From Gallionella capsiferriformans ES-2 (GTDB taxonomy: Bacteria > Pseudomonadota > Gammaproteobacteria > Burkholderiales > Gallionellaceae), in assembly GCF_000145255.1 (NCBI RefSeq), contig NC_014394.1, positions 310,001-374,000 on the forward strand: a stretch of 64,000 nt of DNA, in the 5' to 3' direction. How positions within the stretch are numbered: position 1 is the first letter of the stretch; each line of letters opens with the position of its first letter. A program made the position numbers and the translations under genes. Shown here piece by piece: positions 24,359 to 56,499 of this stretch. The notes under the pieces are model-generated. The model was not told the DNA's origin, made no database searches, and saw only the letters and a program-made list of their open reading frames with translations.

Positions 24359-24955
24359 ATGCAGGATCGAGGATCGGGGATTGAGAATCGGGAAGAAGCC
24401 ACAGCTCCAAATTCGGTGTACAACTCAATCCTTCCTCCTCAATCCTCAATCCTCTTAAACACCACTGCAGAGGATCACCATGTCGCGCGGATGGCTGCGG
24501 TGGCGCTGGGGCTGACGATACTGGAAGGCGCGATTCCATCGCCTCTACCCGGAGTTAAGCCCGGACTTGCCAATATTGTCACCCTGATTGTGCTGGCACG
24601 TTACGGCTGGCGCACGGCAGCATGGGTCTCGTTGTTGCGGGTGTTCGCAGGCAGTTTGTTATTCGGCAATTTTTTAACACCGGGATTTTTTCTGAGTTTG
24701 ACAGGCGCGCTGCTGAGCCTGCTGGCGCTGGCGCTGGCGCAACACCTGCCATCACGCTGGTTTGGTCCTGTCACGCACAGCATATGCGCGGCCTTTGCGC
24801 ACATTGCAGGACAGATGGCGCTGGTCTATCTGTGGTTGATCCCGCATGCGGGTATTGCCTACCTGATTCCCCTTTTTGCCGCCGCCGCACTGGTGTTCGG
24901 TGCTGTGAACGGGCTGATTGCGGCCCGTTTCATGGATAATGCAGAAACTAAATAG
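24359..24955 (+). CDS. Gx transporter-family membrane protein with repeat-derived N-terminus
   Basis: Homology to the Gx/heptaprenyl-diphosphate-synthase-component-I-like family begins at about residue 36 (TAEDHHVARMAAVAL, then SPLPGVKPGLANIVTL). About five membrane helices. The first 33 or so residues are encoded by a heptamer repeat element, giving low-complexity sequence. ATG 24359 is two nt after the upstream stop; GTG 24416 is the other choice. ATG 24491 would cut into the conserved part. Probably works with the NusG-II protein upstream; substrate unknown. Confidence 0.75.
   Translation: MQDRGSGIENREEATAPNSVYNSILPPQSSILLNTTAEDHHVARMAAVALGLTILEGAIPSPLPGVKPGLANIVTLIVLARYGWRTAAWVSLLRVFAGSLLFGNFLTPGFFLSLTGALLSLLALALAQHLPSRWFGPVTHSICAAFAHIAGQMALVYLWLIPHAGIAYLIPLFAAAALVFGAVNGLIAARFMDNAETK
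24364..24454. repeat. Heptamer-phased inverted repeat element A
   Basis: The left arm is five heptamers in register that vary around GGATTGA (24364-24398). The right arm has four units varying around CTCAATC, the complement of the same unit (24424-24454). The arms flank a unique centre of 25 nt. The element lies inside the 5' end of the Gx-family gene and shares arm units and part of its centre (CGGTGT) with element B. Confidence 0.85.
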
Positions 24956-24970
24956 TCTGGAGTGTCTGTT

Positions 24971-25603
24971 GTGAAAACGATTAATCTTGCCTTTACCGGC
25001 GCATCGGGGATGCCTTACGGGATGCGTCTGCTCGAATGTCTGTTGAAAAGCGGACAGCGCGTGCATCTGGTGTATTCACAGGCGGCGCAGATCGTCGCCA
25101 AACAGGAAATGGGGTTGGTGTTGTCCAGTCGTCCGCCGGAAGCTGCGCGCGTGTTGCGTGAGCGCATGGGGGAATTTAGCGGCGAGTTACAGGTGTTCGG
25201 GCGCGATGACTGGTATGCACCGATGGCCTCGGGTTCCAATCCGGGTGATGCGATGGTGATTTGCCCCTGCACGATGGGCACGCTGGCTAAAGTAGCCTGC
25301 GGGATCAGCGATGATTTGATCGCGCGTGCGGCGGATGTGATGCTCAAGGAAAAACGCACCTTAATTCTGGCTCCGCGTGAAATGCCTTTTTCCGTCATTC
25401 ATCTGGAAAATATGCTCAAACTCGCCCAAGCAGGTGCGGTCATCATGCCGCCCAATCCCGGCTTTTATTATCAGCCACAAAATGTACAGGATATGGTGGA
25501 TTTTGTGGTCGCACGTATTCTGGATCATCTGGGGGTCACCAATACACTGATGCCAAGATGGGGTGCATGTGTGCCTGAAAATGATTCGGAGGGATTGCGT
25601 TGA
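24971..25603 (+). CDS. ubiX: Flavin prenyltransferase UbiX
   Basis: Makes prenylated FMN, the cofactor of UbiD decarboxylases in ubiquinone synthesis. 210 residues: AFTGASGMPYGMRLLE at the N-terminus, VICPCTMGTLAKVACGISDDLIARAADV and the REMPFSVIHLENM region. GTG 24971 is preferred because GGAG (24959-24962) is 8 nt upstream; GTG 24962 overlaps that site. Confidence 0.94.
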   Translation: MKTINLAFTGASGMPYGMRLLECLLKSGQRVHLVYSQAAQIVAKQEMGLVLSSRPPEAARVLRERMGEFSGELQVFGRDDWYAPMASGSNPGDAMVICPCTMGTLAKVACGISDDLIARAADVMLKEKRTLILAPREMPFSVIHLENMLKLAQAGAVIMPPNPGFYYQPQNVQDMVDFVVARILDHLGVTNTLMPRWGACVPENDSEGLR

Positions 25604-26544
25604 GTGCATTATTACAGAAGGTAGTCGAAGTGGCCGCTGCCGTGTTGCAGCGCCCGGACGGCACGTTTTTGCTCGCACAGCGACCCGCCGACAAAATATG
25701 GGCGGGATACTGGGAATTTCCGGGGGGTAAGGTCGAGGCGGGTGAAACTGCGCACGATGCGCTGGTGCGCGAGTTGCATGAGGAGCTGGGCATTGAGGTT
25801 CTTACCGCCTATCCTTGGCTTACGCGCGTGTTCACCTATCCTCATGCAACAGTCAGGCTGAGTTTTTTTCGGGTCACCGAATGGCGAGGGGAGCTCTATC
25901 CGCATGAAGGTCAGCAATTTTCGTGGCAACAGGCTCAGGACGTGAGGGTGTCGCCTGTGCTGCCGGCGAATGCGCCTATTTTGCGCGCGCTCGAATTGCC
26001 TGCGCTGTATGCGATTAGCAACGTTGCAGAATTGGGTGTGGAGTCGTTTTTGATCAAGCTGCAGGCGCAGCTGGATGCCGGGTTGCAGTTGATCCAATTG
26101 CGGGAAAAAAATTTAACGCCCGAGCGACTTCGCGAACTGGCCGTTCGTACCGTGGCAATGGCGCATGCAGCCGGGGCGAAGGTGTTGATTAATGGGGATT
26201 TAGCGCTGGCGCGCGAGGTCGGTGCGGACGGCGTGCATCTAACCTCACTACAATTGGCTGAACTGACTGAGCGCCCTTCAGTGGCCTGGTGTGCCGCTTC
26301 CTGTCATACGGATGAGGAGTTGCAACGTGCACAGCGACTAGGCTGCGATTTCGCGATGTTAAGCCCTGTGTTGCCAACGCAGAGTCATCCGGGGGCGGCA
26401 CATCTGGGCTGGGAGCGCTTTTCAGCGTTGGCGGCAGGATCATCCATACCGGTCTATGCGTTAGGCGGGCTAACCCGTGCGGAGATGTCGATAGCGTGGC
26501 AGCGGGGTGCGCACGGTATCGCGTTGCTTCGTCAGGCTTGGTAG
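25600..26544 (+). CDS. Nudix hydrolase fused to a ThiE-like domain
   Basis: 314 residues. The N-terminal MutT-type Nudix domain has the box G-x5-E-x7-REL-x-EELGI (about 42-64). The C-terminal TIM-barrel resembles thiamine phosphate synthase ([28 protein letters not shown]), but the usual LIND motif reads LINGD. The fusion is widespread in beta- and gammaproteobacteria; the second domain's role is unclear. The start is TTG 25600, since GGAGGG lies 6 nt upstream, and it overlaps the ubiX stop. Confidence 0.9.
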
Positions 26545-26723
26545 AGTGGTGCGGTAAAGTCTTGTTCGTCGTCGGGCACGGCGACGCGAAATTCTTCGTC
26601 AGCCCATTTCCCCAAGTCGATCATTTTGCAACGTTCGCTGCAAAATGGACGGAAGCGGTTGTTGGTATCCCAAGGGGATTCTTTGCCGCAGCGCGGGCAT
26701 GGCACGATAGGCGGTTTACTCAC
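26532..26723 (-). CDS. yacG: DNA gyrase inhibitor YacG
   Basis: 63-residue zinc protein: [10 protein letters not shown]...[17 protein letters not shown], with all four Cys of the zinc site. It binds GyrB in E. coli. GTG start overlapping the zapD stop. The 3' end overlaps the convergent Nudix-ThiE gene by 13 bases. Confidence 0.94.
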
Positions 26724-27481
26724 GTTGTCAGGGTGCAGAAAGTCAGGTCAAAGGGAACGTCTTGTTCTAACAGCGATGATTTGGCTTCGTAGTTCGCGAC
26801 GATGAAACGAATATTGATGGCATATTTGTTTGCGCCGAGTTCAGGTATGCAGGGCAGGTTAGCTGCCAGTCGCACGCGTAATAGTTGAGCCGCGCGTCCG
26901 CCTTGCATTTGCTGAAAAGTGCCCTGATGCGCGGTAAAACTGATGGTTCTGCCATTTTCACGCAGCAGGCGTAGCAAAATACTGATGGCAGCGCTGATAG
27001 GCAGCAGTGGTGAGAGCCATTCCTGAAGATCGCTACGACGCAAGGCAACGGGTTGCTTTTGCCAGTAATGGTAGGACGGAAGATCGAACTGGCAGGTGCC
27101 GCCTGGCATGCTGGCGCGCTGCTTTATGCTCATCAGCCATTCGTTTTCTCGCAGTATCGCACCCACTTTACCCGTCATGGCGAGGAGTGCGGATGAGGCT
27201 TGTTCAATTTCTGTCAGGATGCTATCCAGCGCCTGCTCGGAAATGGCCGGATTATTATGCAAGCAGGCCAGCGCACGTTTTTGGCGCTCGAGTTCTTGTA
27301 GCAATTCAGATTTAAGATCCGGGCGGCTGGCAACTTCGTGAATTTCAAACAGCGTGGTGAGGGCAACATGATGTTCCATGCTGATTTCGCCTGCTAAAAA
27401 GTAATTCATACGCGCGAACAAATCCTCAAGACGCAACCAGGTGCGTACTTTTTCATTGATGGGGAATTCGTAGCTGATCAC
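26720..27481 (-). CDS. zapD: Cell division protein ZapD
   Basis: Crosslinks FtsZ filaments. 253 residues: N-terminal [14 protein letters not shown] and a later SYHYWQKQP region, as in the family. GTG start at 27481; an in-frame stop shortly upstream rules out extension. Order coaE-zapD-yacG is conserved in proteobacteria. Confidence 0.94.
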
Positions 27482-27540
27482 GTCGTTATGGTCTTAAATT
27501 CGATAAAAAAAAATGCTAAGGTCGGAAGATATATTGAATA

Positions 27541-28173
27541 TCAGCTTGCCGTCAAATGGTTGTTGCTTATCTGCTGGTAATCGTTGTGAAAGTTGTTTAC
27601 CTGAGCGGTCAATTCGTCCGGCATGCCGTCGTTTTTGATGAGGTCATCCGAGCGAAAAATCCGCTCTTTGCGTGACATTTGTAGCGCAATAATCGCACGA
27701 ATTTCTGATTCGTCAAGCCCGCTACGCTGCATGACGCGCGAAATCTGCTGTTGCTCGCTGCAATCGACCAGTAGGACGCGCTGCACTAGTTTCAAAAAGG
27801 GTGGATTTTCCAGCAGGAGTGGCACCATCAGCAGTGTATACGGCGCTAAGCTCGGGGTGGAGATTGCCTGCGAACAGGCAGTTAAGATCAGCGGATGCAG
27901 GATGTTTTCCAATTTGGCTTTTGCGGCGTAGTCTGCGAAAACCAGATGGCGCATTTTCGGGCGATCCATCGCGCCGGACGCCAGCAGATACTCAGAACCA
28001 AAGTGGGTGCGAATTGCATCGATGGCGTTGCCACCCGGCTGAGTAAGTTGGTGGGCGATCGCATCGGTATCGATAATGCGAACCCCTTTGGCTTCAAACA
28101 GGTGCGCGACCGTACTTTTCCCGCAGCCTATCCCGCCTGTCAGACCGATGCACGTCTGCGGTAGCGAATTCAC
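27541..28173 (-). CDS. coaE: Dephospho-CoA kinase
   Basis: Last step of coenzyme A synthesis. 210 residues: Walker A GLTGGIGCGKSTVA, DTDAIAHQL and the VPLLLEN lid region. GTG start overlapping the pilD stop. The C-terminus is slightly longer than usual. Confidence 0.95.
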   Translation of the reverse strand: MNSLPQTCIGLTGGIGCGKSTVAHLFEAKGVRIIDTDAIAHQLTQPGGNAIDAIRTHFGSEYLLASGAMDRPKMRHLVFADYAAKAKLENILHPLILTACSQAISTPSLAPYTLLMVPLLLENPPFLKLVQRVLLVDCSEQQQISRVMQRSGLDESEIRAIIALQMSRKERIFRSDDLIKNDGMPDELTAQVNNFHNDYQQISNNHLTAS

Positions 28174-29036
28174 GGTGCCAATAGCTGTAAATAGCTCTGT
28201 GTGAGCGTCTGCCCCCAGAACAGTGCGATCAGTCCGCCGCCGGCAAGATATGGCCCGAACGGAATGGGAATCTCGCGGCCCCTTTTGACTGCGATGATTA
28301 AGGCAATGCCGATGATGGCACCGACCAGCGAAGACAGGATGATGATCAGTGGCAGCAGTTGCCAGCCTAACCAGGCACCTAAGGCGGCTAGCAGCTTAAA
28401 GTCTCCGTAGCCCATGCCTTCTTTGCCGGTGACCAGCTTGAATAGCCAAAATACCGACCACAAGGCGAGGTAGCCAAACACGGCGCCTAAGAATGCGTCA
28501 TGCAATGAAGTAAAAGCGCCGTACAGATTGAACAGCAGTCCGGCCCACAGTAGCGGCAGGGTGATGTCGTCAGGTAGTAACTGGGTGTCAAAGTCGATCG
28601 CCGTCAACGCGATTAACGCCCAGATCAGGATAAGGGCCGCGAGGGCGGTCAGTCCGAAACCGAAATGAAATGCTGCAAATCCGCAGAGCAGACCGCTGAA
28701 AGTCTCGATGATCGGGTAGCGGGAGGATATGGCCGTATGACAGCCGGAACACTTGCCGCGCAGCAGCAGATAGCTGATCACAGGGATGTTTTCCCATGCA
28801 CGGATGGCGTGCTGACACTGCGGGCAGGCGGAGCGCGGCACCAGCAGATTGTACGGTTCACTCTCCACGGGTGCTTCGCCGCGCAACTCGGCACATTGCG
28901 ACCGCCAGCCCAGTTCCATCATCTTGGGCAGGCGATGAATGACCACGTTCAGAAAACTGCCAACCATCAGTCCTAGCAGCGTGCAGGTGCCGATAAACAG
29001 GGGGGCGGATGATTCAAGTAAGTCGAATAAGGTCAT
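28170..29036 (-). CDS. pilD: Type IV prepilin peptidase/methyltransferase
   Basis: Cleaves and N-methylates prepilins in the inner membrane. 288 residues: cytoplasmic zinc site (CPQCQHAIRAW...CSGCHTAIS) and the two aspartates of the GxGD-type protease (ALTAIDFDTQLLPDDIT and GMGYGDFKLLAALG). Eight or so helices. No ribosome binding site is visible before ATG 29036; a repeat element fills the whole leader. Confidence 0.95.
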   Translation of the reverse strand: MTLFDLLESSAPLFIGTCTLLGLMVGSFLNVVIHRLPKMMELGWRSQCAELRGEAPVESEPYNLLVPRSACPQCQHAIRAWENIPVISYLLLRGKCSGCHTAISSRYPIIETFSGLLCGFAAFHFGFGLTALAALILIWALIALTAIDFDTQLLPDDITLPLLWAGLLFNLYGAFTSLHDAFLGAVFGYLALWSVFWLFKLVTGKEGMGYGDFKLLAALGAWLGWQLLPLIIILSSLVGAIIGIALIIAVKRGREIPIPFGPYLAGGGLIALFWGQTLTQSYLQLLAP

Positions 29037-29042
29037 AGGTGA

Positions 29043-29120
29043 GGATTGTGGATTGAGAAACGAGGATTGAGGAGGAAATCACGGTGTTTTACTCGATCCG
29101 CAATTCTCGCTCCTCAATCC
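29043..29120. repeat. Heptamer-phased inverted repeat element B
   Basis: Five left-arm heptamers (29043-29077), three close to GGATTGA, then a 14-nt centre, then four right-arm units varying around CTCAATC (29092-29119). It occupies nearly the whole 88-nt gap between the pilC stop and the pilD start. Confidence 0.85.
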
Positions 29121-29124
29121 GGTT

Positions 29125-30336
29125 TTATACGACTTGGCCCATCTTGAAGATAGGCAGATACATCGCCACCACCATGCCGCCGATCAAAGTGCCCAGCACG
29201 ACCATGATGATGGGTTCCATGAGGCTTGAGAGTGCTTCGACGGCGTCGTCCACCTCGGCTTCGTAAAAGTCGGCGACCTTGGAGAGCATCGCATCAAGGG
29301 AGCCGGCTTCTTCGCCGATCGACACCATCTGGATCACCATGCTTGGGAATACTTCGGTATTTTGCATGGCGACGGTCAGGCTGTTACCGGTGCTCACTTC
29401 GCGCTGTATGCTCTTGGTCGCATCAAAATACACGGCATTACCCGCAGCACCCGCGACCGAATTAAAGGCTTCGACCAGCGGCACGCCAGCCGCGAACATT
29501 GTGGATAAAGTGCGGCTCCAGCGCGCGATGGTGGCTTTTTTTACCAGTTCCCCGAAAATGGGAAGTTTAAGGAGCACCCTGTCCATCAAGTGCTGCATCG
29601 GGCGGCTACGCTTCAGGAAATAGAAGAAAGTGTAGAAGCCCCCGCCTATGCCGCCGAAAATGGCCCACCAGTAGCTGACGAAGAAATCTGAAATGGCCAT
29701 GATGAACAAGGTCGGGGCCGGCAAATCAGCGCCGAAGCTTGAGAATAATTCCTTAAATGCGGGAATGACGAAAATCATGATCACGGCCGTGATGATGAAG
29801 GCCACCACGATAATCGAAACCGGATAGAACAGGGCGGATTTGATTTTGCTCTTGATGGCTAGAATCTTTTCCTGATAAGTCGCCAGGCGCTCGAGCAAAC
29901 TATCCAGAATACCTGCCGATTCGCCGGCACCAATCAGATTGCAATACAAATCATCGAAATAGAGGGGATGTTTTTTGAAGGCTTGTTGCAGGCTGCTGCC
30001 GGTTTCAATATCCGTTTTGATCGAAAACAACAGTCTTGAAACGGACGGGTTGTGATGCCCTTTGCCGACGATATCGAACGCCTGCAATAGCGGTACACCG
30101 GCTTTTAGCATGGTCGCTAGTTGCCTTGTGAACAAGGTGATGTCTTTTTGTGTGATTGCTTTGGCGCTGCTGCGCGCTCGTTTTATTTTGGCAACGGTAA
30201 TACCCTGACGGCGCAGATAGGCGGACAAATTGGCTTCGCCGATGGATCGCATTTCACCTTTGACTAACTTGCCGGACTTGTCTTTGCCTTCCCAAGTGTA
30301 GGTGTATTCTTTTGCTTTTTGTTGTGCGACAGCCAT
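29125..30336 (-). CDS. pilC: Type IV pilus inner-membrane platform protein
   Basis: Platform for pilus assembly and retraction. 403 residues with two T2SSF domains: TRQLATMLKAGVPLLQAFDI (from about 88) and SRTLSTMFAAGVPLVEAF (from about 290), plus three membrane segments. GAGGAAA precedes the ATG. pilB is not in the window; the upstream neighbour is a CorC-like gene beyond a repeat element. Confidence 0.95.
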   Translation of the reverse strand: MAVAQQKAKEYTYTWEGKDKSGKLVKGEMRSIGEANLSAYLRRQGITVAKIKRARSSAKAITQKDITLFTRQLATMLKAGVPLLQAFDIVGKGHHNPSVSRLLFSIKTDIETGSSLQQAFKKHPLYFDDLYCNLIGAGESAGILDSLLERLATYQEKILAIKSKIKSALFYPVSIIVVAFIITAVIMIFVIPAFKELFSSFGADLPAPTLFIMAISDFFVSYWWAIFGGIGGGFYTFFYFLKRSRPMQHLMDRVLLKLPIFGELVKKATIARWSRTLSTMFAAGVPLVEAFNSVAGAAGNAVYFDATKSIQREVSTGNSLTVAMQNTEVFPSMVIQMVSIGEEAGSLDAMLSKVADFYEAEVDDAVEALSSLMEPIIMVVLGTLIGGMVVAMYLPIFKMGQVV

Positions 30337-30413
30337 GAAGTTTCCTCTGAGTTGCTATCCGACATTGCGCGGTATGATGCCGAGCTTTGGGTGGATTGTA
30401 AAGTCGGAGAAGC

Positions 30414-30478
30414 GGTGAGTGGTGAGTGGTGAGTGGAAAAACCAGTAGTATTGACTACTTCCTACTCCCCACTCACTG
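30414..30478. repeat. Heptamer-phased inverted repeat element C
   Basis: Three exact copies of GGTGAGT in a row (30414-30434), a spacer still in 7-nt register, and an inverted arm (30456-30478) with units such as TACTCCC and CACTCAC. The right arm overlaps the stop codon of the CorC-like gene. Confidence 0.85.
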
Positions 30479-31750
30479 TTTTTGTACTTGTTGCGGAAAC
30501 AAACGTGCAACTTTGACGATGCGATCTTGAGTTTGAATGATTTCAATGGGGTAGCCTGCGATCTTCAGGCTGGTGCCCGTTTCCGGAATGTCTTCCAGTT
30601 GTTCGAGTATCAGTCCGTTTAGCGTTTTAGCGCTGTCCATCGGCAGGTGTAAGCCGAGCTTTCGGTTAAGTTCGCGTAAGGTAGTGCTGCCCTCTAGCAG
30701 GATGCTGCCATCTTCCTGGCGCAGAAATTTACCCGTTTGTGAGGGGGACTGCGTGGTGAATTCACCGACGATTTCTTCCAAAATATTTTCCAGCGTCACC
30801 AGTCCCAGCAGTTCGCCGTATTCGTCCACCACCAGCCCCATGCGCGTGTGACGTTCCTGGAATTGTTGCAGTTGCTGGAGCAGAGGGGTATCTGACGGTA
30901 TGAAATAGGGTTCCTGCAGTACATCACGTAATTCTGTCGTATTGAAATTTCCCTCTTGAAAAAGCGCCGGGATGCGCTTGATGTGCAGGATGCCCAGGAT
31001 GTTGCCCGGTGTGTCCGCATAAACCGGCAGCAGCGTGTGGTGGCAGGTGATGATCTGCTCGCGCAGCGCGTCCTCATCTGCGTTGATGTTCAGCGACTCG
31101 ATCTGATTGCGCGGGATCATTACGTCGTTGACTGTGATGCGCTCAAGATCGACGAGGTTGAGCAGCATTTTCTGATGTTTGCGCGGCAGGAAGTGTTCGG
31201 CTTCCAGCACCATGCCACGCAATTCTTCCAGGGTTATTTTTTGTTTGCTCTGATCGGTCTGAACTTTAATGCGTAAGAGCCAGAGTACGCCTTTTACGAT
31301 GCCGCCGGCGACCGATACGACAGGATGAAACAAGGTGATCAGCGGGGTGAGCAAGTAGCTTGACGGAAGTGCGATGCGTTCCGGATAGCTCGCCGCGATT
31401 ATTTTTGGCAGAATTTCGCTAAAAATCAGCAGCATCAGCGTGATCAGCAGTGTGCCGATCAGCATCACCAGTTCGTTATGTCCGTACAGGCGCAGCACGA
31501 TGAATTCGGTTAGGGTTGCTGCTGCAACGTTGAGCAAGGTATTGCCGAGCAGGATAGAGCCTAGCAGCTTGTCAATTTTACCCAGCAGCTGTGCGGTGAG
31601 TTTTGCGCTCTTGTTGCCCTTGCGGATTAAATGGTTGAGGCGGTGGCGATTGATCGCCATCATGCTGGTCTCTGAGCCTGAAAAAAATGCGCTACAAACC
31701 AGCAGCAAGATCAAGATGCCAAATAATGAAGCTGTAGAAAAATCGTTCAA
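30473..31750 (-). CDS. CNNM/CorC-type transporter-associated protein (HlyC/CorC family)
   Basis: 425 residues: CNNM membrane domain (FFSGSETSMMAINRHRL at about 24-40), a CBS pair (VMIPRNQIESL; GLVVDEYGELLGLVTLEN) and a C-terminal CorC/HlyC domain. The family is linked to Mg/Co efflux or resistance. The only sensible start is TTG 31750, with no clear ribosome binding site. The stop codon TGA is formed at the edge of repeat element C. Confidence 0.88.
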   Translation of the reverse strand: MNDFSTASLFGILILLLVCSAFFSGSETSMMAINRHRLNHLIRKGNKSAKLTAQLLGKIDKLLGSILLGNTLLNVAAATLTEFIVLRLYGHNELVMLIGTLLITLMLLIFSEILPKIIAASYPERIALPSSYLLTPLITLFHPVVSVAGGIVKGVLWLLRIKVQTDQSKQKITLEELRGMVLEAEHFLPRKHQKMLLNLVDLERITVNDVMIPRNQIESLNINADEDALREQIITCHHTLLPVYADTPGNILGILHIKRIPALFQEGNFNTTELRDVLQEPYFIPSDTPLLQQLQQFQERHTRMGLVVDEYGELLGLVTLENILEEIVGEFTTQSPSQTGKFLRQEDGSILLEGSTTLRELNRKLGLHLPMDSAKTLNGLILEQLEDIPETGTSLKIAGYPIEIIQTQDRIVKVARLFPQQVQKQ

Positions 31751-31802
31751 AGTAGCGTCGCTGAGTGAATTGCAGTCAGTGTGAAAGAGGTGTCGGGCTG
31801 TG

Positions 31803-32591
31803 TCAAGCCACAGGGCGCCGGTAGCTCCATACCATCATGGCGATTCCGGTCAGCACCATCGGCAAACTTAGCCATTGACCCATGCTGATGCCAAGACTCA
31901 TTAAACCGAAAATACCGTCGTCCGGATTGCGGGCGAATTCGCCTAAAAAGCGGAAGCTGCCATAGCCGATCAAAAACAGGCCGGATACGGCGCCGACAGG
32001 GCGCGGTTGCTTTGCATATAGCCAGAGCAGCGTAAATAGCAGCACGCCTTCAAGCGCGAACTCATAAAGTTGGGACGGGTGGCGCGGTAAATTATCGACG
32101 TGAGGGAAAATCATCCCCCAGGGTGCATCGGTTGGTCGTCCCCACAATTCGCCGTTGATGAAATTTCCCAGTCGTCCGAAGGCCAGCCCGGGTGGCACCA
32201 GCGGGGCGATGAAGTCCATCAGTTCGAGCCAGCGCAGTTTTTGCTGATAGGCGAACACGGCCATCGCGACCAGTACGCCCAGAAATCCGCCGTGAAAAGA
32301 CATGCCGCCTTCCCAGACGGCGAGAATTTTGAGCGGGTTGGCAAAATAGTAGGAAGGATTGTAAAACAGCACTTCACCTAGGCGGCCGCCTAAAATCACG
32401 CCCAGCACGCCGTAAAAAAGCAGATCGTCGAGCGTCTTGTTGGTAATCTGCGTGTAATTCAGCGTAACGATGCGTTTCCGCCCCAGCCACAAAAAGGTCA
32501 AAAAGCCTGCCATATACATCAGGCCGTACCAGTGAATTGCGAGCGGGCCGAGTTGCAGGGCGACGGGATTGATGTGTGGATAAACGAGCAT
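31803..32591 (-). CDS. lgt: Prolipoprotein diacylglyceryl transferase
   Basis: Transfers diacylglycerol to lipobox cysteines in the inner membrane. 262 residues, seven helices, with the Lgt signature [16 protein letters not shown] near 146 and HPSQLYE. It is followed on the same strand by the CorC-like gene and is divergent from ilvD. Confidence 0.96.
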
Positions 32592-32648
32592 GTGGGAATC
32601 AGGTAGAATTGATAACTTGATTATAGCCTACCCTTTCAGAGAGACATC

Positions 32649-34496
32649 ATGCCAGTTTACCGTTCCCGTACTTCCACTCATGGCCGCAATATGGCCGGTG
32701 CGCGCTCCCTGTGGCGCGCGACCGGTATGAAAGAGGGCGATTTCGGCAAGCCCATTATCGCGATTGCCAATTCATTCACTCAGTTTGTGCCCGGTCACGT
32801 TCACCTGAAAGACATGGGGCAGTTGGTTGCGCGTGAAATTGAGCGTGCGGGCGGAATAGCCAAAGAATTCAATACGATCGCGGTGGATGACGGCATCGCG
32901 ATGGGTCACAGCGGCATGCTGTATTCGCTGCCCAGCCGCGATCTGATCGCAGATTCCGTCGAGTATATGGTCAATGCCCATTGCGCCGATGCGCTGGTGT
33001 GTATTTCCAATTGCGACAAGATTACGCCGGGTATGTTGATGGCGGCGATGCGCCTGAATATTCCGGTGGTGTTCGTCTCAGGCGGCCCGATGGAAGCCGG
33101 TAAGGTGAACTGGAATGGCGCGACCCGCGGGCTGGATCTGGTCGATGCGATGGTGGCTGCTGCAGATAGCCATTACAGCGATGCAGAAGTGGATGCGATC
33201 GAGCGCTCCGCCTGTCCGACTTGCGGTTCCTGCTCCGGCATGTTTACCGCCAACTCGATGAATTGCTTGACCGAAGCGCTGGGTCTGTCCCTGCCGGGTA
33301 ACGGTTCGCTGGTTGCGACCCATGCCGAGCGAAAGCAGTTATTTTTGCGTGCAGGGCGCGTGATCGTCGATTTGTGTAAACGTTATTATGAGCAGGATGA
33401 CGAATCGGTGTTGCCGCGCAATATCGCGACGTTTAATGCCTTCGAAAACGCCATGACGCTGGATATCGCGATGGGCGGTTCGACCAATACCGTGTTGCAT
33501 CTGTTGGCTATTGCGCGTGAGGCGGAGGTCGATTTCACCATGAAGGATATGGATCGTTTGTCGCGCCATGTACCCACGTTGTGCAAGGTTGCGCCCTCAT
33601 CCGAATATCACATGGAAGACGTGCATCGAGCCGGCGGCATTCCGGCGATTTTGGGTGAACTCGACAGAGCCGGTTTGCTGCATGGCGAGGTGGGTTCGGT
33701 GCACAGCAAGACGCTGCGCGACGGGTTGGCCGCATGGGATATCGTGCAAAACACCGATGGGACGGCGGACAAGTTTTTCAGAGCCGCACCCGGTGGTATC
33801 GTTACTACCATCGCATTTTCGCAATCGATGCTGTACCCGGAAACGGATTCTGATCGTGCTACGGGCTGCATCCGCGACAAGGCGCATGCCTATTCGCAGG
33901 ACGGTGGTTTGGCGGTGTTGCATGGCAATGTCGCCGTCGACGGTTGTATCGTCAAGACGGCGGGCGTAGATGAGAGCATTTTAAAATTTACCGGGCGTGC
34001 GCGCGTGTTTGAGAGTCAGGACGATGCGGTCGCAGCGGTGCTTGCCGATACTATCGTCGCGGGTGACGTGGTGGTGATCCGTTACGAGGGGCCCAAGGGC
34101 GGTCCGGGTATGCAGGAGATGCTGTATCCGACGGCTTATCTGAAATCGAAAGGCTTAGGCAAAGTCTGTGCCTTGCTCACCGATGGACGTTTTTCCGGTG
34201 GCACCTCGGGGCTCTCTATCGGACATGTCTCGCCGGAAGCGGCTGCAGGCGGTGCGATCGGGCTGGTTGTTGAAGGCGATACGATAGAAATCGACATTCC
34301 CAATCGCAGCATCGTTCTGAGTATTTCGGATGAGGAAATGGTGCGACGCCGCACCGAGATGGCGTCGCGCGGCCGTCTGGCCTGGAAGCCGGTCAGTCGT
34401 GATCGGCAGGTGTCGGTGGCACTGCGGGCCTATGCTGCGATGACCACCAGTGCTGATAAGGGCGCGGTGAGAGATGTGACTCAAATTGAAAGTTAA
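32649..34496 (+). CDS. ilvD: Dihydroxy-acid dehydratase
   Basis: Fe-S enzyme of branched-chain amino acid synthesis. 615 residues, standard for the long form. Cluster cysteines are in [11 protein letters not shown] (about 122) and [17 protein letters not shown] (about 195); [19 protein letters not shown] is near the end. GAGAGA precedes ATG 32649. The stop codon lies at the edge of repeat element D. Confidence 0.97.
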
Positions 34497-34548
34497 CAAC
34501 TGCTAATTTTCAACTATTAATTTTCAATTTTAAATTATCAATTGGAGC
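34481..34548. repeat. AT-rich heptamer-phased repeat element D
   Basis: Between ilvD and the mutarotase gene, successive 7-nt units begin with AA over about nine periods (for example AATTTTC, AACTATT, AATTATC). The left part (AATTGAA) is the approximate complement of the right-hand units. It covers the ilvD stop and ends with the ribosome binding site of the next gene. Base composition differs sharply from the GC-rich neighbours. Confidence 0.7.
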
Positions 34549-34553
34549 TAAAT

Positions 34554-35459
34554 ATGACGACAGCATTGAATTCGCAATTCGGTATCAAAGGGCAATTGGT
34601 TTTTAACGTAGACGCGAGCGGTTTGATCGTCGCTGAAATCGACAACGCATTGGGCCGCGCATCGTTGTGCTTGCAGGGCGCACATCTGATGAGCTGGCAG
34701 CCGAAAAGTCAGGCGGTTCCCGTGGTGTGGTTGTCGCGCGACACGAAACCCGCAGTCGGTAAATCGATACGCGGCGGTGCGCCGGTGTGCTGGCCCTGGT
34801 TTGGCGCGCATGCGAGCGAAGCAGGCTTTCCGGGTCACGGTTTTGCACGCACTGTGCCTTGGCGCGTGATCGAGTCGGGCAGCGAACCCGATGGCGCGAC
34901 GCGACTGACCTTGCGTCTTGTGCCCTCCGACAAAACGCGCGCACAGTGGTTGCATGAATGCAACGTGGATCTGACGGTGATTGTTGGTGAAACGCTGCGT
35001 ATGGAAATGACGACTGAAAATACCGGTGCCACAAATTTCGTGATCGGCGAAGCGCTGCACACCTATTTTCAGATCAGCGACATCGGCGCTATCCGCGTGA
35101 CGGGGCTGGAAGGCACTGAATACTGGGACAAGGTGGGCGGCTCCAACTTGCGTCGTCAGGATGGTGCGATCACGTTTAATAGTGAAGTTGATCGCGTCTA
35201 TATCAACACCGGCAGCGAGTGTGTGATTCACGACGATAAGCTGGCTCGTCGCATTCATATCGCTAAATCAGGCAGCCAATCGACCGTGGTGTGGACGCCG
35301 TGGGTCGAAAAAGCTAATAAAATGGGCGATATGGGGCAGCCGGACGGCTGGCGCGAGATGGTTTGCGTCGAATCGGTCAATGCGATTGAAAATGTGGTGA
35401 CGGTCGCGGCAGGCACGCGTCACACCATGATCGTTGAATATCGTGCCGAGTCGGTTTAA
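34554..35459 (+). CDS. D-hexose-6-phosphate mutarotase (YeaD/GalM-like)
   Basis: 301 residues of the aldose-1-epimerase fold: GAHLMSWQP, SIRGGAPVCWPWFGAH, GFARTVPW, and EALHTYFQISDI with the catalytic His/Glu region. It interconverts anomers of glucose 6-phosphate in the family. ATG 34554 follows GGAG by a normal distance; an in-frame ATG at 34542 lies before the site. Confidence 0.9.
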   Translation: MTTALNSQFGIKGQLVFNVDASGLIVAEIDNALGRASLCLQGAHLMSWQPKSQAVPVVWLSRDTKPAVGKSIRGGAPVCWPWFGAHASEAGFPGHGFARTVPWRVIESGSEPDGATRLTLRLVPSDKTRAQWLHECNVDLTVIVGETLRMEMTTENTGATNFVIGEALHTYFQISDIGAIRVTGLEGTEYWDKVGGSNLRRQDGAITFNSEVDRVYINTGSECVIHDDKLARRIHIAKSGSQSTVVWTPWVEKANKMGDMGQPDGWREMVCVESVNAIENVVTVAAGTRHTMIVEYRAESV

Positions 35460-35470
35460 GGAGTATGCAA

Positions 35471-35704: not shown

Positions 35705-35750
35705 TGCAGGTATGTGCTGTATTTGTAATAACGGTGTCAACCGGAGTGTG

Positions 35751-46133: not shown

Positions 46134-46164
46134 TCGCAGAGACTTGCAACTTCAGAGCCAATAA

Positions 46165-46192: not shown

Positions 46193-46197
46193 ATAAA

Positions 46198-46374
46198 GCC
46201 CCCCGCCTGTGCCGTTGACCCAGCATCTCGAACCTAAAGGTTCAAGAGGGTCACTTCCCTGTCATATCAGGATCATCCGCAAGGGACGTTCACAACAATG
46301 GCGTGTGGGTCGCGACCTGTAAAGTTACTTGGTTCAAAGAATATATGAGTCTGACGAACACCGCAGGGGACAAC
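46198..46374 (-). ncRNA. ssrS: 6S RNA
   Basis: Minus strand, downstream of zapA, the standard position. The 5' end has CCCCTGCGGTGTTCGTCAG, and the 3' part has CTTGAACCTTTAGGTTCGAG and a GGCGGGG closing strand that pairs with the 5' CCCC. The length and the central internal bulge are consistent with an open-complex mimic that binds sigma-70 RNA polymerase. The ends are approximate. Confidence 0.85.
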
Positions 46375-46395
46375 TCGAAATCTTGAGGTGGCCGA

Positions 46396-46904: not shown

Positions 46905-47022
46905 GCGGCTAATATAGTTTGAAAAGTGCTGGAAAGTCAATTGCTAAGACGCGCTTTTAGAAGCGTTTTATAAAACACCGTTTTGTGCAGAGCCGGGCGC
47001 GTGTTAAAGTGTGCGCTGCTTT
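46905..47022. other. Divergent promoter region before the B12 operon
   Basis: AT-rich. TAAAGT at 47005-47010 could be the -10 box for the riboswitch transcript, and another promoter must serve zapB/zapA on the minus strand. No gene seen. Confidence 0.4.
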
Positions 47023-47217
47023 GAGGTGCTTGGTTGCTTTGCAGTCAAGTTAAACGGGAAGCAGGTGCGTTGTTTGACACAGGAAATTTCCGGTGCCGTC
47101 GACAAAGCCTGAGCTGCCCCCGCAACGGTCGTCGAGTGTGGATTTGCCATTGAGCCACTGTGAGTCATCATGGGAAGGCGGTAAATCAAGACTTGTGAGC
47201 CCGGATACCGGCCTTAT
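47023..47217 (+). promoter_or_regulatory. Cobalamin (adenosyl-B12) riboswitch
   Basis: Has the conserved core in order: AAACGGGAAGCAGGTG (47052-47067), AAGCCTGAGCTGCCCCCGC, the B12 box with GAGCCACTG (47152-47160), GGGAAGGCGG, and GTGAGCCCGGATACCGGCC at the end. It is followed by about 160 nt to the TonB receptor ATG. A pair ACGGGA (47227) / TCCCGT (47285) in that leader has no T run, so control may be at translation. B12 excess would repress uptake. Confidence 0.95.
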
Positions 47218-47377
47218 TGCAAAGGTACGGGAGATGCTGCGGGCGGCGCATCGGAATTCATGAGAAAGCGCGGCGCAAGCCTTGTCCCGTCTCGTGACTT
47301 TATCGCATTCACTCGCAGTATTTCCTGAAAATAAAACATTCCAACGGGGACGCTTGGGATTTATTCGGGAAATCACG

Positions 47378-49396: not shown

Positions 49397-49418
49397 GCAT
49401 CCGTTATTTTGATGCAGG

Positions 49419-49446
49419 CAAGGGCGGTGTGCCGCCTTTGTTTTTT
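49419..49446 (+). terminator. Terminator after the TonB receptor gene
   Basis: CAAGGGCGG / CCGCCTTTG hairpin (one G-U pair) followed by six T. Confidence 0.85.
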
Positions 49447-49503
49447 AGCGGGTAGTGGCGCAGTTTGGTATCATTGCGCCGCTACCCAATTTAAGGAGAG
49501 GTA

Positions 49504-50656: not shown

Positions 50657-50697
50657 GGCCAGTCCGAACGCCCTGCTTTTCTGATAAAGTGCGCGCC

Positions 50698-52488: not shown

Positions 52489-52548
52489 CGGAATGGAGTT
52501 AATGCCCTAAATTGCATCACCCGATACATTCAACTTCAGGAGATAAAC

Positions 52549-53154
52549 ATGGCAGTTCTCGTAGGCAAAGCAGCACCCGATTTTACCGCCGCCGCTGTAA
52601 TGGGCAACAACGAAATCAACGAATCATTCAATCTGAAAAGCCATATCGCTGGCAAGGCTGCGGTGATCTTTTTTTACCCGCTCGATTTTACGTTCGTGTG
52701 TCCTTCCGAGTTGATTGCGTTTGATCACCGTCTGGCGGAGTTCAAAAACCGTGGCGTGGAAGTTATCGGTGTGTCGATTGACTCGCAATTCACCCATCTG
52801 GCATGGAAAAATACGCCGGTTAACAAGGGCGGTATCGGTCAGGTCGGTTATCCGCTGGTGGCTGATATCAAGCATGAAATCTGTCAGGCGTATGACGTTG
52901 AACTGGCGGGTGCGGGCGTCGCGCTGCGCGGCTCTTTCCTGATCGATAAGACCGGCGTGGTGATGCATCAGGTTGTGAATATGCTGCCGCTGGGGCGTGA
53001 TATCGACGAAATGCTGCGTATGGTCGATGCGCTGCAATTTTTCGAAACGCATGGTGAAGTATGTCCAGCTGGCTGGAAAAAGGGCAAAGCTGGTATGAAC
53101 GCATCCACGGAAGGGGTTGCACAATATCTGGCTGATCACGCACAGAGTTTGTAA
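52549..53154 (+). CDS. Typical 2-Cys peroxiredoxin
   Basis: 201 residues. Peroxidatic Cys in DFTFVCPSE (about 51) and resolving Cys in GEVCPAGW (about 171). It reduces H2O2 and organic peroxides, in an AhpC/Prx form lacking a linked AhpF in this window. CAGGAG precedes the ATG. Confidence 0.95.
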   Translation: MAVLVGKAAPDFTAAAVMGNNEINESFNLKSHIAGKAAVIFFYPLDFTFVCPSELIAFDHRLAEFKNRGVEVIGVSIDSQFTHLAWKNTPVNKGGIGQVGYPLVADIKHEICQAYDVELAGAGVALRGSFLIDKTGVVMHQVVNMLPLGRDIDEMLRMVDALQFFETHGEVCPAGWKKGKAGMNASTEGVAQYLADHAQSL

Positions 53155-53178
53155 GCCGCTTCTCCCCGTTTCGCAAGT

Positions 53179-53207
53179 AAAGGGCCATCTTGATGATGGC
53201 CCTTTTT
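53179..53207. terminator. Terminator between the peroxiredoxin and rhodanese genes
   Basis: AAAGGGCCATC / GATGGCCCTTT perfect 11-bp stem with five T; it lies between convergent genes. Confidence 0.92.
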
Positions 53208-53243
53208 GCGTCTGCTACTCGCTAATTTAGTCGAGATTTTCGT

Positions 53244-53648
53244 TCAATTCGGACGCACTACTTTCAATTCGGATTTTTCCCACGCCAGTATGCCGCCCGC
53301 TATATTGCTAACGTGACTGTATCCCGCTTCCTGCAACAGATGGACGGCTTTTGCAGAGCGCCTTCCGGAGCGGCACATCACGATGATGGGTTTATCCTTG
53401 TAAGATGCAATCTCATCAAGTCTCGCACCCAGCTGTCCTAACGGAATCAGCGTGGCATTGGGTGCGTGTACTTCGGTATATTCACTGGGTTCTCGCACAT
53501 CCAGTAACAGCGCTCCTTGCCTATTCATGGTGTGTGCTTGTGTCACATCAATATCTACATCTGTTGTTGCTTGTAAGCGTTGAGCGCCGAGCATCACAAG
53601 CAACAGGGTCGCGAGCGTCAGTGATATTTTTTTAGTCGTTAATTTCAT
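53244..53648 (-). CDS. Exported single-domain rhodanese
   Basis: 134 residues. Signal peptide (about 1-28, ending LQA), then a rhodanese domain with DVREPSEYTEVHAPNA and the active-site loop MCRSGRRS (Cys near 92). Probably a periplasmic sulfurtransferase or redox protein. Divergent from the CoA-disulfide-reductase fusion across a CRP-like palindrome. Confidence 0.9.
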   Translation of the reverse strand: MKLTTKKISLTLATLLLVMLGAQRLQATTDVDIDVTQAHTMNRQGALLLDVREPSEYTEVHAPNATLIPLGQLGARLDEIASYKDKPIIVMCRSGRRSAKAVHLLQEAGYSHVSNIAGGILAWEKSELKVVRPN

Positions 53649-53963
53649 GCTGAGATCCTGAATGAAGGGTAGAAATTGTGTTACATGATATTTGAAGTGT
53701 TACCAGTGATCTGTGATAAATATCACAATAAAGGCATCTATTTAAGAATATTATAATATGCTTGTAATTAAAATCATTTAGGCTGAAAATCCTAAGCGAT
53801 CGTAAGTTAATTAATCGCTGTCCTGCGGTTGCAGGATCTGTCGGCTAGCGCTTTACTGAGTGTGTCTAGTCAATGTCAGAGACTCCGATGAGCGCTATTA
53901 AACGTTATTTTCGACTGGTTTCGATGTGTATCGACGGTTTAACTACCCTTTTAAGGATGCAAG
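53649..53963. other. Divergent intergenic region, no gene seen
   Basis: 315 bp, AT-rich in the first half. It contains one clear dyad (53712-53727) and presumably promoters for both flanking sulfur-related genes. Confidence 0.6.
53712..53727. promoter_or_regulatory. CRP/FNR-superfamily operator-like palindrome
   Basis: TGTGATAAATATCACA is a perfect dyad and matches TGTGA-N6-TCACA, the CRP consensus; relative to FNR sites the outer bases differ. It lies 64 bp from the rhodanese start. A CRP-like or DNR-like regulator is suggested; none other than FNR is encoded here. Confidence 0.65.
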
Positions 53964-56453
53964 ATGAAAGTTGTTATTATTGGGGGTGTCGCCGGAGGCG
54001 CCACTGCGGCAGCGCGGATTCGCCGCAACGATGAGCGTGCGGAGATCGTCATGATAGAGCGCGGCCCGTATATCAGTTTCGCTAACTGCGGCTTGCCCTA
54101 CCACATCTCAGGCACCATCGAACAGCGCGAGCAACTGCTGGTGACGTCTGAACCCGCGTTCGAGGCGCGCTACCGCGTGGATGTACGCAGCCGCACAGAG
54201 GCAATCGCGATAGACCGCCAGGCAAAACTGGTGAGATTGCGCGATCTGAACACGGGCGATGAATACGACGAGTCCTATGATAAGCTGCTGCTCTCCCCGG
54301 GTGCTGAGCCCGTGCGACCCAAACTGCCCGGTATTGATTCGCCGCGCGTGTTCGGTCTGCGCAATATTCCCGATCTGGACCGCATCATGGGTCATCTCGA
54401 ACAACATTCGCCGCGCCGTGCGGTGGTGATAGGTGGCGGCTTCATCGGCATCGAAGTGGCCGAGAACCTGCATGAAAAAGGCATTTTCACCACGCTGGTG
54501 GAAGGCGCTGACCAGATCCTGCTGCCACTCGACTACGAGATGGCGGCCATTGTCCATTCCCACATGAAGGACAAGAACGTCGAACTTTACTTGTCGGACA
54601 AGGTGGAACGCTTCGAAGACAAGGATGATCATACCGTTGTATATCTCGGCAGTGGACGCCGTCTGCAGGCAGATATGGTGGTGTTGGCCATCGGCGTGCG
54701 CCCCGAAACCACACTGGCGCGTGCCAGCGGTCTGGAACTGGGAAGTACCGGCGGCATCAAGGTGGACAGCCATTTGCAGACTTCCGACCCAGATATTTAT
54801 GCGGTGGGCGATGCGATCGAAGTCACGCAGTTCATCAGCGGCCGTCAGGCGCTGATTCCGCTGGCGGGCCCGGCCAACCGTCAGGGCCGCATGGCCGCGG
54901 ACAACATCGTGTTCGGTAACAAACAGCAATATCGTGGCACGCAGAGCACATCAATACTCAAAGCCTTCGATCTGGCCGCCGCGACCACCGGACTGAACGA
55001 GAAACAACTTATCGCCGCAGAGATCCCTTTCCTCAGTTGCATCACGCACAGCGGCTCGCACGCCAGCTATTACCCGGGCGCAAAACAGATCAGCCTGAAA
55101 CTGCTGTTTTCGCCTGAGGGCCGCATCCTCGGCGCACAGGCGGTGGGTGCGGACGGCGCAGACAAGCGCATCGACGTGATCTCGACGGCGATACACGGCA
55201 ATCTGAATGTGGAAGATCTGGCCGAACTGGAGCTCGCTTACGCGCCGCCGTTCAGTTCCGCCAAGGATCCGGTCAATATCGCAGGCTATGTGGCCATCAA
55301 CCTGCTGAACAAGTCACACGAGATGATAGCGTGGCGTGAATTGCATGCGCGATTGCTCGCAAAGTCATCTGAACTTCAACTCATCGATGTGCGCACGGCC
55401 GAAGAGTACGAATTTGGCAGTATCGCGACGGCGCGCAATTTCGATGTCAATCAGATTCGTGAACATTTGGACGAACTCGATCGCAATGCGCCCGTGGTGG
55501 TGTTTTGCCAGATTGGCCTGCGCGGTTATCTGGCTTATCGCATCCTTAAACAGCATGGTTTCACTCAGGTCAGCAACCTTTCAGGCGGCTACAAGACTTA
55601 CTCGTGGGCAGTGGATAAGCAGTCTAATCCGGATATCTTCGACTATGAAGACATCAAGCGTCGTGCGCCAGAAGTAATTGAAGCTGAGCGCAGCGGTAGT
55701 GCTGTACTGGTCGCGCCCGGTGGCGAGCTGCACACGCTGAACGCGGTCGGCCTGCAATGCCCGGGTCCCATCATGAAGACCTACAAGGCGATGGAGGCGC
55801 TCGATGCAGGAGAGTTGCTGGAAGTCACCGTTTCCGACCCGGCCTTTGGTCGCGATATCCGCGCATGGGCTAAGAAGACAGGCAACGATGTGTTGTCGCT
55901 CAAGTCCGACAAGGGGTTGATTGTCGTGCTGTTGCGCAAGAACAAGGCCGTGCCTGTCGTCGCCCTGCCGGCAGCGACACGCGACAAGCTCACGCTGGTG
56001 GTGTTCTCGGACGATCTGGACAAGGTGATGGCTAGCATGATCATCGCAAATGGTGCGCTGGCGATGGGTAAGCCGGTCAGTTTGTTCTTCACCTTCTGGG
56101 GGCTTGATGTGCTGCGTCGTGAAAATGCGCCTGCACGGGATAAGCCGATGATGGATCGGATGTTCAGTTCCATGTTGCCGTCAGGCGTAGATCATCTTAA
56201 CTCGATTTCGAAAATGGATATGCACGGCTTGGGAGCTAAAATGATCCGCAAGGTGATGCATGACAAGGGGGTTGAAACACCCGGCCATTTGCTGCAAAGT
56301 CTGGTTGACGGCGGGGCACAGATGATCGCCTGTCAAATGTCCATGGATGTGATGGGAATACACCAGTCCGAGTTGATTGATGGCGTGGAAATTGGCGGCG
56401 TAGCAGCCTTTTTGGGCGAAGCGTCAGAATCTGGTACGACGCTGTTTATTTGA
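53964..56453 (+). CDS. CoA-disulfide reductase-type flavoprotein fused to rhodanese, TusA and DsrE-like domains
   Basis: 829 residues. Domains in order: FAD/NAD oxidoreductase (GGVAGGATAAARIRR at start; SFANCGLPYHISG holds the redox Cys near 43; GGGFIGIEVAENL near 157); rhodanese (VVFCQIGLRGYLAYR, Cys near 515); TusA-like (LQCPGPIMKTYKAME, near 597); DsrE/DsrF-like C-terminus. It likely handles persulfide or CoA-S-SH sulfur, passing it between its own domains. AAGGAT precedes ATG 53964. Confidence 0.92.
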   Translation: MKVVIIGGVAGGATAAARIRRNDERAEIVMIERGPYISFANCGLPYHISGTIEQREQLLVTSEPAFEARYRVDVRSRTEAIAIDRQAKLVRLRDLNTGDEYDESYDKLLLSPGAEPVRPKLPGIDSPRVFGLRNIPDLDRIMGHLEQHSPRRAVVIGGGFIGIEVAENLHEKGIFTTLVEGADQILLPLDYEMAAIVHSHMKDKNVELYLSDKVERFEDKDDHTVVYLGSGRRLQADMVVLAIGVRPETTLARASGLELGSTGGIKVDSHLQTSDPDIYAVGDAIEVTQFISGRQALIPLAGPANRQGRMAADNIVFGNKQQYRGTQSTSILKAFDLAAATTGLNEKQLIAAEIPFLSCITHSGSHASYYPGAKQISLKLLFSPEGRILGAQAVGADGADKRIDVISTAIHGNLNVEDLAELELAYAPPFSSAKDPVNIAGYVAINLLNKSHEMIAWRELHARLLAKSSELQLIDVRTAEEYEFGSIATARNFDVNQIREHLDELDRNAPVVVFCQIGLRGYLAYRILKQHGFTQVSNLSGGYKTYSWAVDKQSNPDIFDYEDIKRRAPEVIEAERSGSAVLVAPGGELHTLNAVGLQCPGPIMKTYKAMEALDAGELLEVTVSDPAFGRDIRAWAKKTGNDVLSLKSDKGLIVVLLRKNKAVPVVALPAATRDKLTLVVFSDDLDKVMASMIIANGALAMGKPVSLFFTFWGLDVLRRENAPARDKPMMDRMFSSMLPSGVDHLNSISKMDMHGLGAKMIRKVMHDKGVETPGHLLQSLVDGGAQMIACQMSMDVMGIHQSELIDGVEIGGVAAFLGEASESGTTLFI

Positions 56454-56471
56454 TGCATGAAGTCCGTCGTT

Positions 56472-56499
56472 GTAGTGGGTAGTGAGAAGTGAGTTTCAG
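56472..56499. repeat. Short heptamer-phased repeat E
   Basis: Four 7-nt units in register, three of them variants of GTAGTGA. No inverted arm is found nearby. It lies just after the stop of the fused flavoprotein gene and looks like a degenerate half of the element C type. Confidence 0.5.

Follow-up and report, generated by a model that had tools for sequence, protein, structure and literature searches.

Palindromic heptamer arrays in Gallionella: recurrence at shared gene borders and protein loops with differing heptamer words

Introduction

The window analysed here, bases 310001-374000 (64,000 nucleotides) of the 3,162,471-base single-contig genome of Gallionella capsiferriformans ES-2 (NC_014394.1), contains five places, called elements A to E, where the DNA is phased in units of seven nucleotides, in part as an array of one heptamer facing an array of its complement. 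The question raised by this locus is what such elements are, and what is kept of them when the same site is followed from one relative to the next. What is new here is that the same sites in relatives often carry arrays of a different heptamer word. The genus provides a test system for this question: it has closely related species, addresses that are fixed, sites both filled and empty, and coding positions with readable ends, and the comparison separates the address, which is often kept, and the period, which is kept, from the sequence, which is replaced. This combination points to a process rather than to the function of any one sequence.

Results

The comparison of orthologous gene borders proposed as a check by the first-pass annotation of this DNA came out in favour of recurrence: an array was found at 6 of the 11 orthologous borders where this genome has one, versus 1 of 50 where it has none (Fisher, 5e-5; score cut 10, gaps shorter than 400 bases, shared descent still included in the count). 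The two borders of the pilC-like gene were then followed in 24 same-genus genomes, including this one, in which both are readable (genome G002, matched only by a paralogue, was dropped). At the border with the prepilin peptidase gene pilD, the site of element B, 15 of the 24 carry arrays of five unit classes, assigned by hand as at the other border: GGATTGA in 4 genomes, AGTGG in 7, ACAGA in 2, a direct GGAATCA array in 1 and a short array of another kind in 1, with none in 9; in relative G011, the AGTGG array sits behind another palindrome. At the opposite border, with the CNNM/CBS/CorC_HlyC gene (CorC/pilC, the site of element C), 9 genomes have AGTGG, 1 has AATTGAT and 14 have none. The element classes at pilC/pilD differ within the pairs G011-G015, G011-G003 and G017-G016 despite pilC ends (last 450 bases) that are 0.90-0.96 identical and pilD starts that are 0.80-0.96 identical, values on which horizontal transfer of the whole region was rejected.

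On a tree of PilC and ValS with 28 tips, four of them outgroups (some nodes are weakly supported, 0.24-0.51, and G014, G015, G016, G018, G022 and G023, which have no ValS row, are placed by PilC alone), the pilC/pilD states require at least 12 changes, gains and losses together, against a mean of 13.7 with shuffled labels. The minimum is 6 (8.7 when shuffled) at CorC/pilC and, at two coding sites described below, 8 (11.0) in the PF07456 gene and 14 (15.1) in the AddA loop. In 80 named pilC loci, some identical to loci already in the survey, we counted 20 clusters of self-identity at a lag of 7 nucleotides in 34 kb of borders (13 in 10 kb for loci L281-304 and 7 in 24 kb for L305-360) versus 4 in the remaining, largely coding 296 kb (none in the 87 kb of the first set and 4 in the 209 kb of the second). 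The control at lag 6 gave 2 clusters at the borders and 11 in the rest, and lag 8 gave none.

At the element D site, among the same-genus genomes, an array occurs only in this genome (G000) and G010, where it is long, and in G003, where it is short; it is absent from G003's close relatives G015 and G011, and the border of G018 is covered only partly. Array length varies among relatives at two sites, and at one of these by whole-heptamer steps.

The first-pass annotation placed the elements at gene borders, which holds for the border arrays and is incomplete, since arrays also lie in frame within the genes for the PF07456 protein, an AddA-like helicase-nuclease and valyl-tRNA synthetase, all with open reading frames. 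Element A itself appears to lie in the N-terminal part of the heptaprenyl-diphosphate-synthase-I (PF07456) gene and not between genes, and it is probably translated, as residues to either side of it are conserved. At this site (24 of 27 rows anchored), G009 and G017 are cleanly empty, G022, G012, G024 and G038 have no array and G002 has a short remnant, while GGATTGA-class arrays are present in G000, G013, G008, G018, G019, G004, G014, G010 and G001 and, in degenerate form, in G006. GGGAGAA is repeated in 4-5 units in G020 and G021 and in about 1.6 units in G005, a difference whose direction is not polarised, and in G011, G015, G003 and G007 the element is, by eye, flanked by two copies of a flank of about 25 nt. 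In the AddA-like loop (27 proteins), 9 are empty, 7 carry heptamer arrays of three classes, one is truncated, 8 carry one of three other palindrome families and 2 have other or degenerate inserts. In the valyl-tRNA synthetase loop, arrays were read by eye in G000, G011, G010 and G003, with G002 having a degenerate array and G013 another palindrome; four relatives have no insert.

The three palindrome families in the AddA loop (L112, L126, L128 and L129; L121 and L131; L125 and L136) are unrelated to one another, and in G022 further sequence seems to be nested inside one of them. Yet another palindromic sequence, CCCCCGTAAAGGGGACGCC..., lies in frame in the 5' part of the aldose-epimerase gene of G011, G010, G022 and G018 (L264, L268, L274, L280) and was not seen in the other printed rows of that gene.

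The elements of the window and the genes around them are as follows (window positions; z, RNA folding against shuffles).

24338..24955, plus strand: open reading frame with PF07456 (Hpre_diP_synt_I) at residues 52-197 (Pfam), element A lying in frame upstream of the domain
24363..24394, plus strand: element A, purine arm (AGGATCG/GGATTGA units), lag-7 score 13, inverted relative to the pyrimidine arm
24429..24454, plus strand: element A, pyrimidine arm (CTCAATC units), lag-7 score 13
28170..29036, minus strand: prepilin peptidase gene (PF06750, PF01478; Pfam), called pilD
29040..29120, no strand given: element B (GGATTGA class), inverted arms, between the pilC-like (T2SSF) and prepilin peptidase genes, both on the minus strand; z -5.05
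29125..30336, minus strand: pilC-like gene (PF00482 T2SSF; Pfam), anchor of the comparative survey
30410..30481, no strand given: element C (GGTGAGT class), between the CNNM/CBS/CorC_HlyC and pilC-like genes, both on the minus strand; z -4.08
30473..31750, minus strand: CNNM/CBS/CorC_HlyC gene (Pfam)
32649..34496, plus strand: ilvD-like dehydratase gene, its last codons forming the first unit of element D
34484..34543, plus strand: element D (AATTNNN class), continuous array starting with the last ilvD codons; z -1.42
56472..56493, plus strand: element E (AGTGRG class), weak half array, lag-7 score 11; z -1.51

In all five elements lag 7 is the identity peak among lags 3-13 (A 0.55, B 0.45, C 0.60, D 0.54, E 0.62), as expected from the seven-nucleotide period first noticed there, and lag-14 identity exceeds the lag-7 value in B (0.50) and D (0.65). 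The register had been called strict; the phasing is real, the units are degenerate. The inverted structure of A, B and C (a purine arm and a pyrimidine arm) and the AT-rich nature of D were seen again, D being a single uninterrupted array that runs from the last ilvD codons to the Shine-Dalgarno region of the next gene (lag-14 score 22; lag-7 score 14 at 34505-34543). Element E does look like half an element, as had been proposed, and is weak and not exceptional within the window. The program TRF reported period 7 or 14 at A to D and nothing at E. No other window within the 64 kb matches the lag-7 value of A or C, and 1, 6 and 8 other clusters reach those of D, B and E, respectively. Directly upstream of pilC, at about 30337-30405, there is by eye a conserved-looking leader, CTTTACAA...AAAGCTCGGCATCATGCC (same-genus genomes, L053-L081), which seems to be kept whatever precedes it and for which a promoter, a leader or a small RNA are candidates.

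A wider sample of 844 kb, made up of the window and 39 of 40 systematic 20-kb stretches (L015, which overlaps the window, was left out), contains 40 lag-7 segments with a score of at least 11, versus 3 in a first-order Markov control. Lag 8 gave 5 segments, lag 6 gave 22, and lags 9, 12 and 21 gave 25, 26 and 28, the segments at multiples of three being chiefly in coding DNA. A crude mask of open reading frames (ORFs) leaves 10% of the sample as non-coding DNA, where the counts are 19 at lag 7, 12 at lag 14, 7 at lag 21, 4 at lag 6 and 3 at lag 8, with at most 5 at each remaining lag from 4 to 24. A count of lag-7 arrays no higher than those at lags 6 and 8 had been named in advance as the outcome that would tell against a family; with 19 versus 4 and 3, lag 7 is therefore the commoner, and the proposal of a dispersed, partly inverted family of heptamer-phased repeats with varied unit words and one period is borne out. 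The remaining 21 segments lie in masked coding DNA, some in real genes and some perhaps in spurious ORFs. Judged by the ORF calls, co-directional genes flank 16 of the 19 non-coding segments (a raw count without a baseline), divergent genes flank one and convergent genes another, and the last is at a stretch end. The 79 strong inverted repeats whose arms reach 16 nt or more show a strong signal at lag 7 in 10 cases, at lag 12 in 3, at lags 6 and 11 in 1 case each and at lag 8 in 0, and the purine arm comes first in 7 of 7 close array pairs. The resulting catalogue of 62 candidate elements includes false positives. The longest array in the sample is TTTTAAC, about 21 units over 150 bp (L041, 16753-16902).

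In 384 kb from 13 other genomes of the genus, lag 7 gave 23 segments, lag 8 none, lag 6 12 and lag 9 24, the lag-7 rate being biased upward because the stretches were picked around genes with known arrays or transposases. Three other families of the order, at 120 kb each, gave 0, 1 and 0 lag-7 segments, and 40 kb of another genus of the family gave 1. Elements B and E, taken alone, are unexceptional in the window by lag-7 identity, which speaks for chance or ordinary low-complexity sequence; as an account of the whole, this is hardly credible in view of the lag-7 excess in non-coding DNA and inverted repeats and of the recurrence at orthologous sites.

The heptamers fall into recognisable classes. 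AGGAT is contained in the unit consensus of 16 of the 40 lag-7 segments, and aligned units, pre-selected by an anchor word, give GGANYGR and AGTRGNR; further unit words are ACAGAGG, AATTGAT, GGAATCA, ACAAGGN and GGGAGAA. Unit pairs with at most one mismatch in some rotation make up 12.4% of all pairs, versus 2.3% after letter shuffling (maximum 3.7%), in a test that counts both arms of one element. GGATTGA-like words (at most two mismatches) number 18, versus 11.3 when shuffled, and GACAGAG-like words 12 versus 5.6. A GGATTGA trimer with at most one mismatch was found in 2 of 397 genomes of the phylum, at 11 places here and 3 in the other genome, the sample including just one other genome of the family. 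The AGTGGGA pattern, again with at most one mismatch, was found in 1 of 141 genomes of the class, namely this one (9 places). Its control, the pattern read backwards and itself a heptamer, had 15 and 11 matches in genomes G505 and G543 of the class and 2 here; since the control matches two other genomes in this way, other lineages appear to use other heptamer words, which suggests lineage-specific vocabularies. A single motif for all classes was rejected: the loose pattern RNYRRNR fits most of them, but also an estimated one third or so of random heptamers.

Folded as RNA in gene sense, elements A, B and C do better than shuffled sequences (z -2.8, -5.1 and -4.1) and D and E hardly so (-1.4 and -1.5). 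The terminator role suggested by the first-pass annotation is not supported, and intrinsic terminators were rejected as an explanation: no T-run directly follows the arms of A to D, and none of the 16 sites from a terminator scan of 24000-35000, which sees loops of 3-8 nt only, falls on A to D. The folding of A, B and C and the filling of one border by different classes in many species would also fit selected RNA hairpins, which would be of use between cistrons, with any sequence able to fold being retained, so that structure persists as sequence turns over. We consider this distinctly unlikely: similar elements lie in frame within protein loops, 9 of 24 genomes have no pilC/pilD element, D and E fold weakly and direct-only arrays occur (G013; L041). 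Their presence in protein loops and absence from many borders lead us to doubt that a selected RNA role is the main reason for the elements.

The purine-rich arms recall the DNA G-quadruplex elements proposed for heptamers of Xanthomonas and Nostoc, for which a similar intergenic placement is in print (in the accessible text of PMC4692102), and the AGTGGGA and GAGTGGG variants of the AGTGG class do contain GGG runs. Only some AGTGG variants do, however: the GGATTGA, GGTGAGT, GACAGAG and AATT classes (AATTGAT units among them) have none, so that G-quadruplexes cannot account for the whole family and are very improbable as its explanation.

Discussion

The reading that we prefer, tentatively, is that these elements are palindromes carried as passengers at permissive hot sites, with arms that change in steps of 7 nt. 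Palindromic repeats would settle at a limited number of permissive sites, namely protein loops that tolerate an insert and spacers between co-directional genes, often near the stop codon of the upstream gene. Their arms would be arrays of one heptamer and its complement, which, once in place, would gain or lose length in 7-nt steps and might become alike through copying within the hairpin. The whole element would often be lost and then replaced at the same site by another heptamer class or another palindrome family, so that the place would persist and the sequence would not, the elements being present in mRNA or protein as passengers with almost no selective effect. The lag-7 excess, the purine-first pairs, the recurrence at orthologous sites, the different classes at one site between conserved flanks, the in-frame occupancy of loops that are empty elsewhere and the array-length differences at two sites are observed; to these the scheme adds, as suppositions, arrival by dispersal, a direction of length change, homogenisation of the arms and neutrality.

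Dispersal is supported by the excess of GGATTGA- and GACAGAG-like words, the in-frame inserts with empty sites, the fast turnover and a shared centre in the ACAGA class. This centre, of about 56 nt, recurs at non-orthologous loci in G005 and G016. Both genomes have it at a locus upstream of AddA; G005 also has it in the AddA region itself, and G016 at the pilC/pilD border and at one more locus. A strict search for it across 25 genomes gave three matches in 2 genomes, and two of these matches were at loci known from before. The alignment of centres that had been proposed as a check was thus positive for ACAGA and negative for GGATTGA and AGTGG, and one mobile element with a conserved centre was accordingly rejected for the latter two classes and kept for ACAGA. 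The earlier idea of a miniature mobile repeat fares similarly, turnover, in-frame inserts and the ACAGA centre speaking for it and the link to a transposase failing in a search for Y1_Tnp alone. Of the features of miniature inverted-repeat transposable elements, inverted arms are present and a flank repeat is seen by eye at one site, the transposase search being limited to Y1_Tnp. That search, within one genus, gave 36 matches, of which 6 had no locus and 30 were examined; mobilisation by RAYT transposases was rejected on its result, given below.

Several results weigh against passengers that disperse. Recurrence is not general, 21 of the 24 same-genus genomes being array-free at D. The flank duplication is restricted to the PF07456 site, and arrays occur in only 2 of the 30 Y1_Tnp loci (flanks up to 1.5 kb; other transposases were not searched). 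AGTGGGA-like words (10 versus 10.7 when shuffled) and AATTGTT-like words (9 versus 8.4) show no excess, and positions within the unit look constrained (GGANYGR, AGTRGNR), which is unexpected under pure neutrality. Finally, centres are not shared between loci for the GGATTGA and AGTGG classes, which argues for local birth; 70 of 1378 candidate centre pairs beat 20 shuffles versus 65.6 expected, and the strongest of them are ACAGA or orthologous pairs. A comparison of arm pairing, in which the real arms did better than the average chimera (15 of 17 elements and 19 of 19), is biased as a test of arm co-evolution because the arms had been pre-trimmed to their best match, and was not used.

The main rival to dispersal is birth in place, in which chance lag-7 matches in native sequence would be amplified by polymerase slippage in 7-nt steps and the inverted arm would arise by fold-back template switching. 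Besides the unshared centres of the two main classes, it can point to element D, which starts with native ilvD codons and continues in register, array-free relatives having a QIE-stop-like end there, and to the GGAGAA-type seed in G005 compared with the arrays in G021 and G020, again without a polarised direction. In 26 border arrays (two further anchors were missing), the unit was compared with the final 12 nt of the upstream gene in each of the seven phases; the in-register phase gives the best fit, with 107 matches, while the other six average 75.7 and reach 95 at most, and the register is strictly best in 7 of 26 arrays, with 3.7 expected. This register test is only suggestive, because orthologous rows are not independent, it is limited to arrays within 12 nt of the stop codon and some unit consensuses span both arms. 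The excess of GGATTGA-like words within the genome and the ACAGA centre at non-orthologous loci stand against birth in place, which we regard as possible and somewhat doubtful; the unpolarised direction of length change and a vocabulary excess that does not extend to AGTGG take weight from dispersal and give it to local birth. Hairpins can arise by template switching, according to the accessible part of PMC8794818, which lends this rival a mechanism and from which we infer that template switching may also homogenise the arms.

A broader claim would be that some process indifferent to sequence creates palindromes in 7-nt phase at fixed chromosomal addresses and keeps rewriting them, with address and period passed on and the heptamer not. 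We think this unlikely; if true, it would mean a mutational or enzymatic system with a 7-nt step and not the usual kind of repeat family. The question of why the step should be seven becomes testable in this genus.

Two well-known kinds of bacterial palindrome invite comparison. Rickettsia palindromic elements are palindromes that lie in frame within protein-coding genes; the elements described here resemble them, by description only, in their in-frame palindromes, and the coding sites above likewise have in-frame insertions with empty orthologues. To our knowledge, Rickettsia palindromic elements contain no heptamer arrays. Repetitive extragenic palindromic (REP) elements and their BIME arrangements are short intergenic palindromes with RAYT transposases; the likeness is in the short intergenic palindromes, and here 28 of 30 Y1_Tnp loci have no copies and there is no single conserved sequence.

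Among heptamer repeats, the nearest described case is that of Xanthomonas and Nostoc (Rehm et al. 2015, PMC4692102). The accessible text of that paper describes GGGNATC and GGGGA(C/T)T repeats that are dispersed, mainly intergenic, nearer to the upstream gene and often between co-directional genes, with convergent pairs, also near stop codons, counted in 70 cases for X. campestris pv. campestris and in 75 for X. axonopodis pv. citri (Xac); in Xac, 83% of the repeats are found in an unchanged context, and single repeats mostly stay single and paired ones paired. Repeats of this type are characterised by a GGG run per unit, a preference for four units and proposed quadruplex formation. The Gallionella arrays share with these the tandem 7-nt units with an intergenic excess (19 of 40 segments in the non-coding DNA that makes up 10% of the sample), the dispersal, the position nearer to the upstream gene, the co-directional spacers and the convergent inverted pairs (7 of 7 purine-first). 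As far as that text goes, they differ in having several unit classes in one genome, including GGATTGA, ACAGAG and AATT classes that lack GGG, classes that differ at one border between close relatives, and protein loops shared with other palindrome families. Inverted heptamer arrays are already a known kind, since they are in print for Xanthomonas there, and the first-pass annotation's remark that no family with inverted heptamer arms had been described holds at most for betaproteobacteria.

TAACTGA direct repeats of Beggiatoaceae, Cyanobacteria and Bacteroidetes (MacGregor 2015, PMC4679880), as far as the accessible text describes them, are likewise intergenic heptamer arrays with a scattered phylogenetic distribution, but they have one unit, are direct (1 inverted set of 170) and lie mostly upstream of start codons. 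The SPADE survey (PMC6344855) found that in many species heptamers outnumber all other intergenic tandem repeats, with no function known for them, and its accessible part describes neither an inverted structure nor a comparison of orthologous borders. An open-access literature search naming Gallionella, with subscription papers mostly outside its scope, gave a paper on Ferrovum and no other.

Rfam at its gathering score gave three matches in the window, none of them at elements A to E. Elsewhere in the window, Rfam places a 6S RNA gene at 46196-46372 and a cobalamin riboswitch at 47007-47230.

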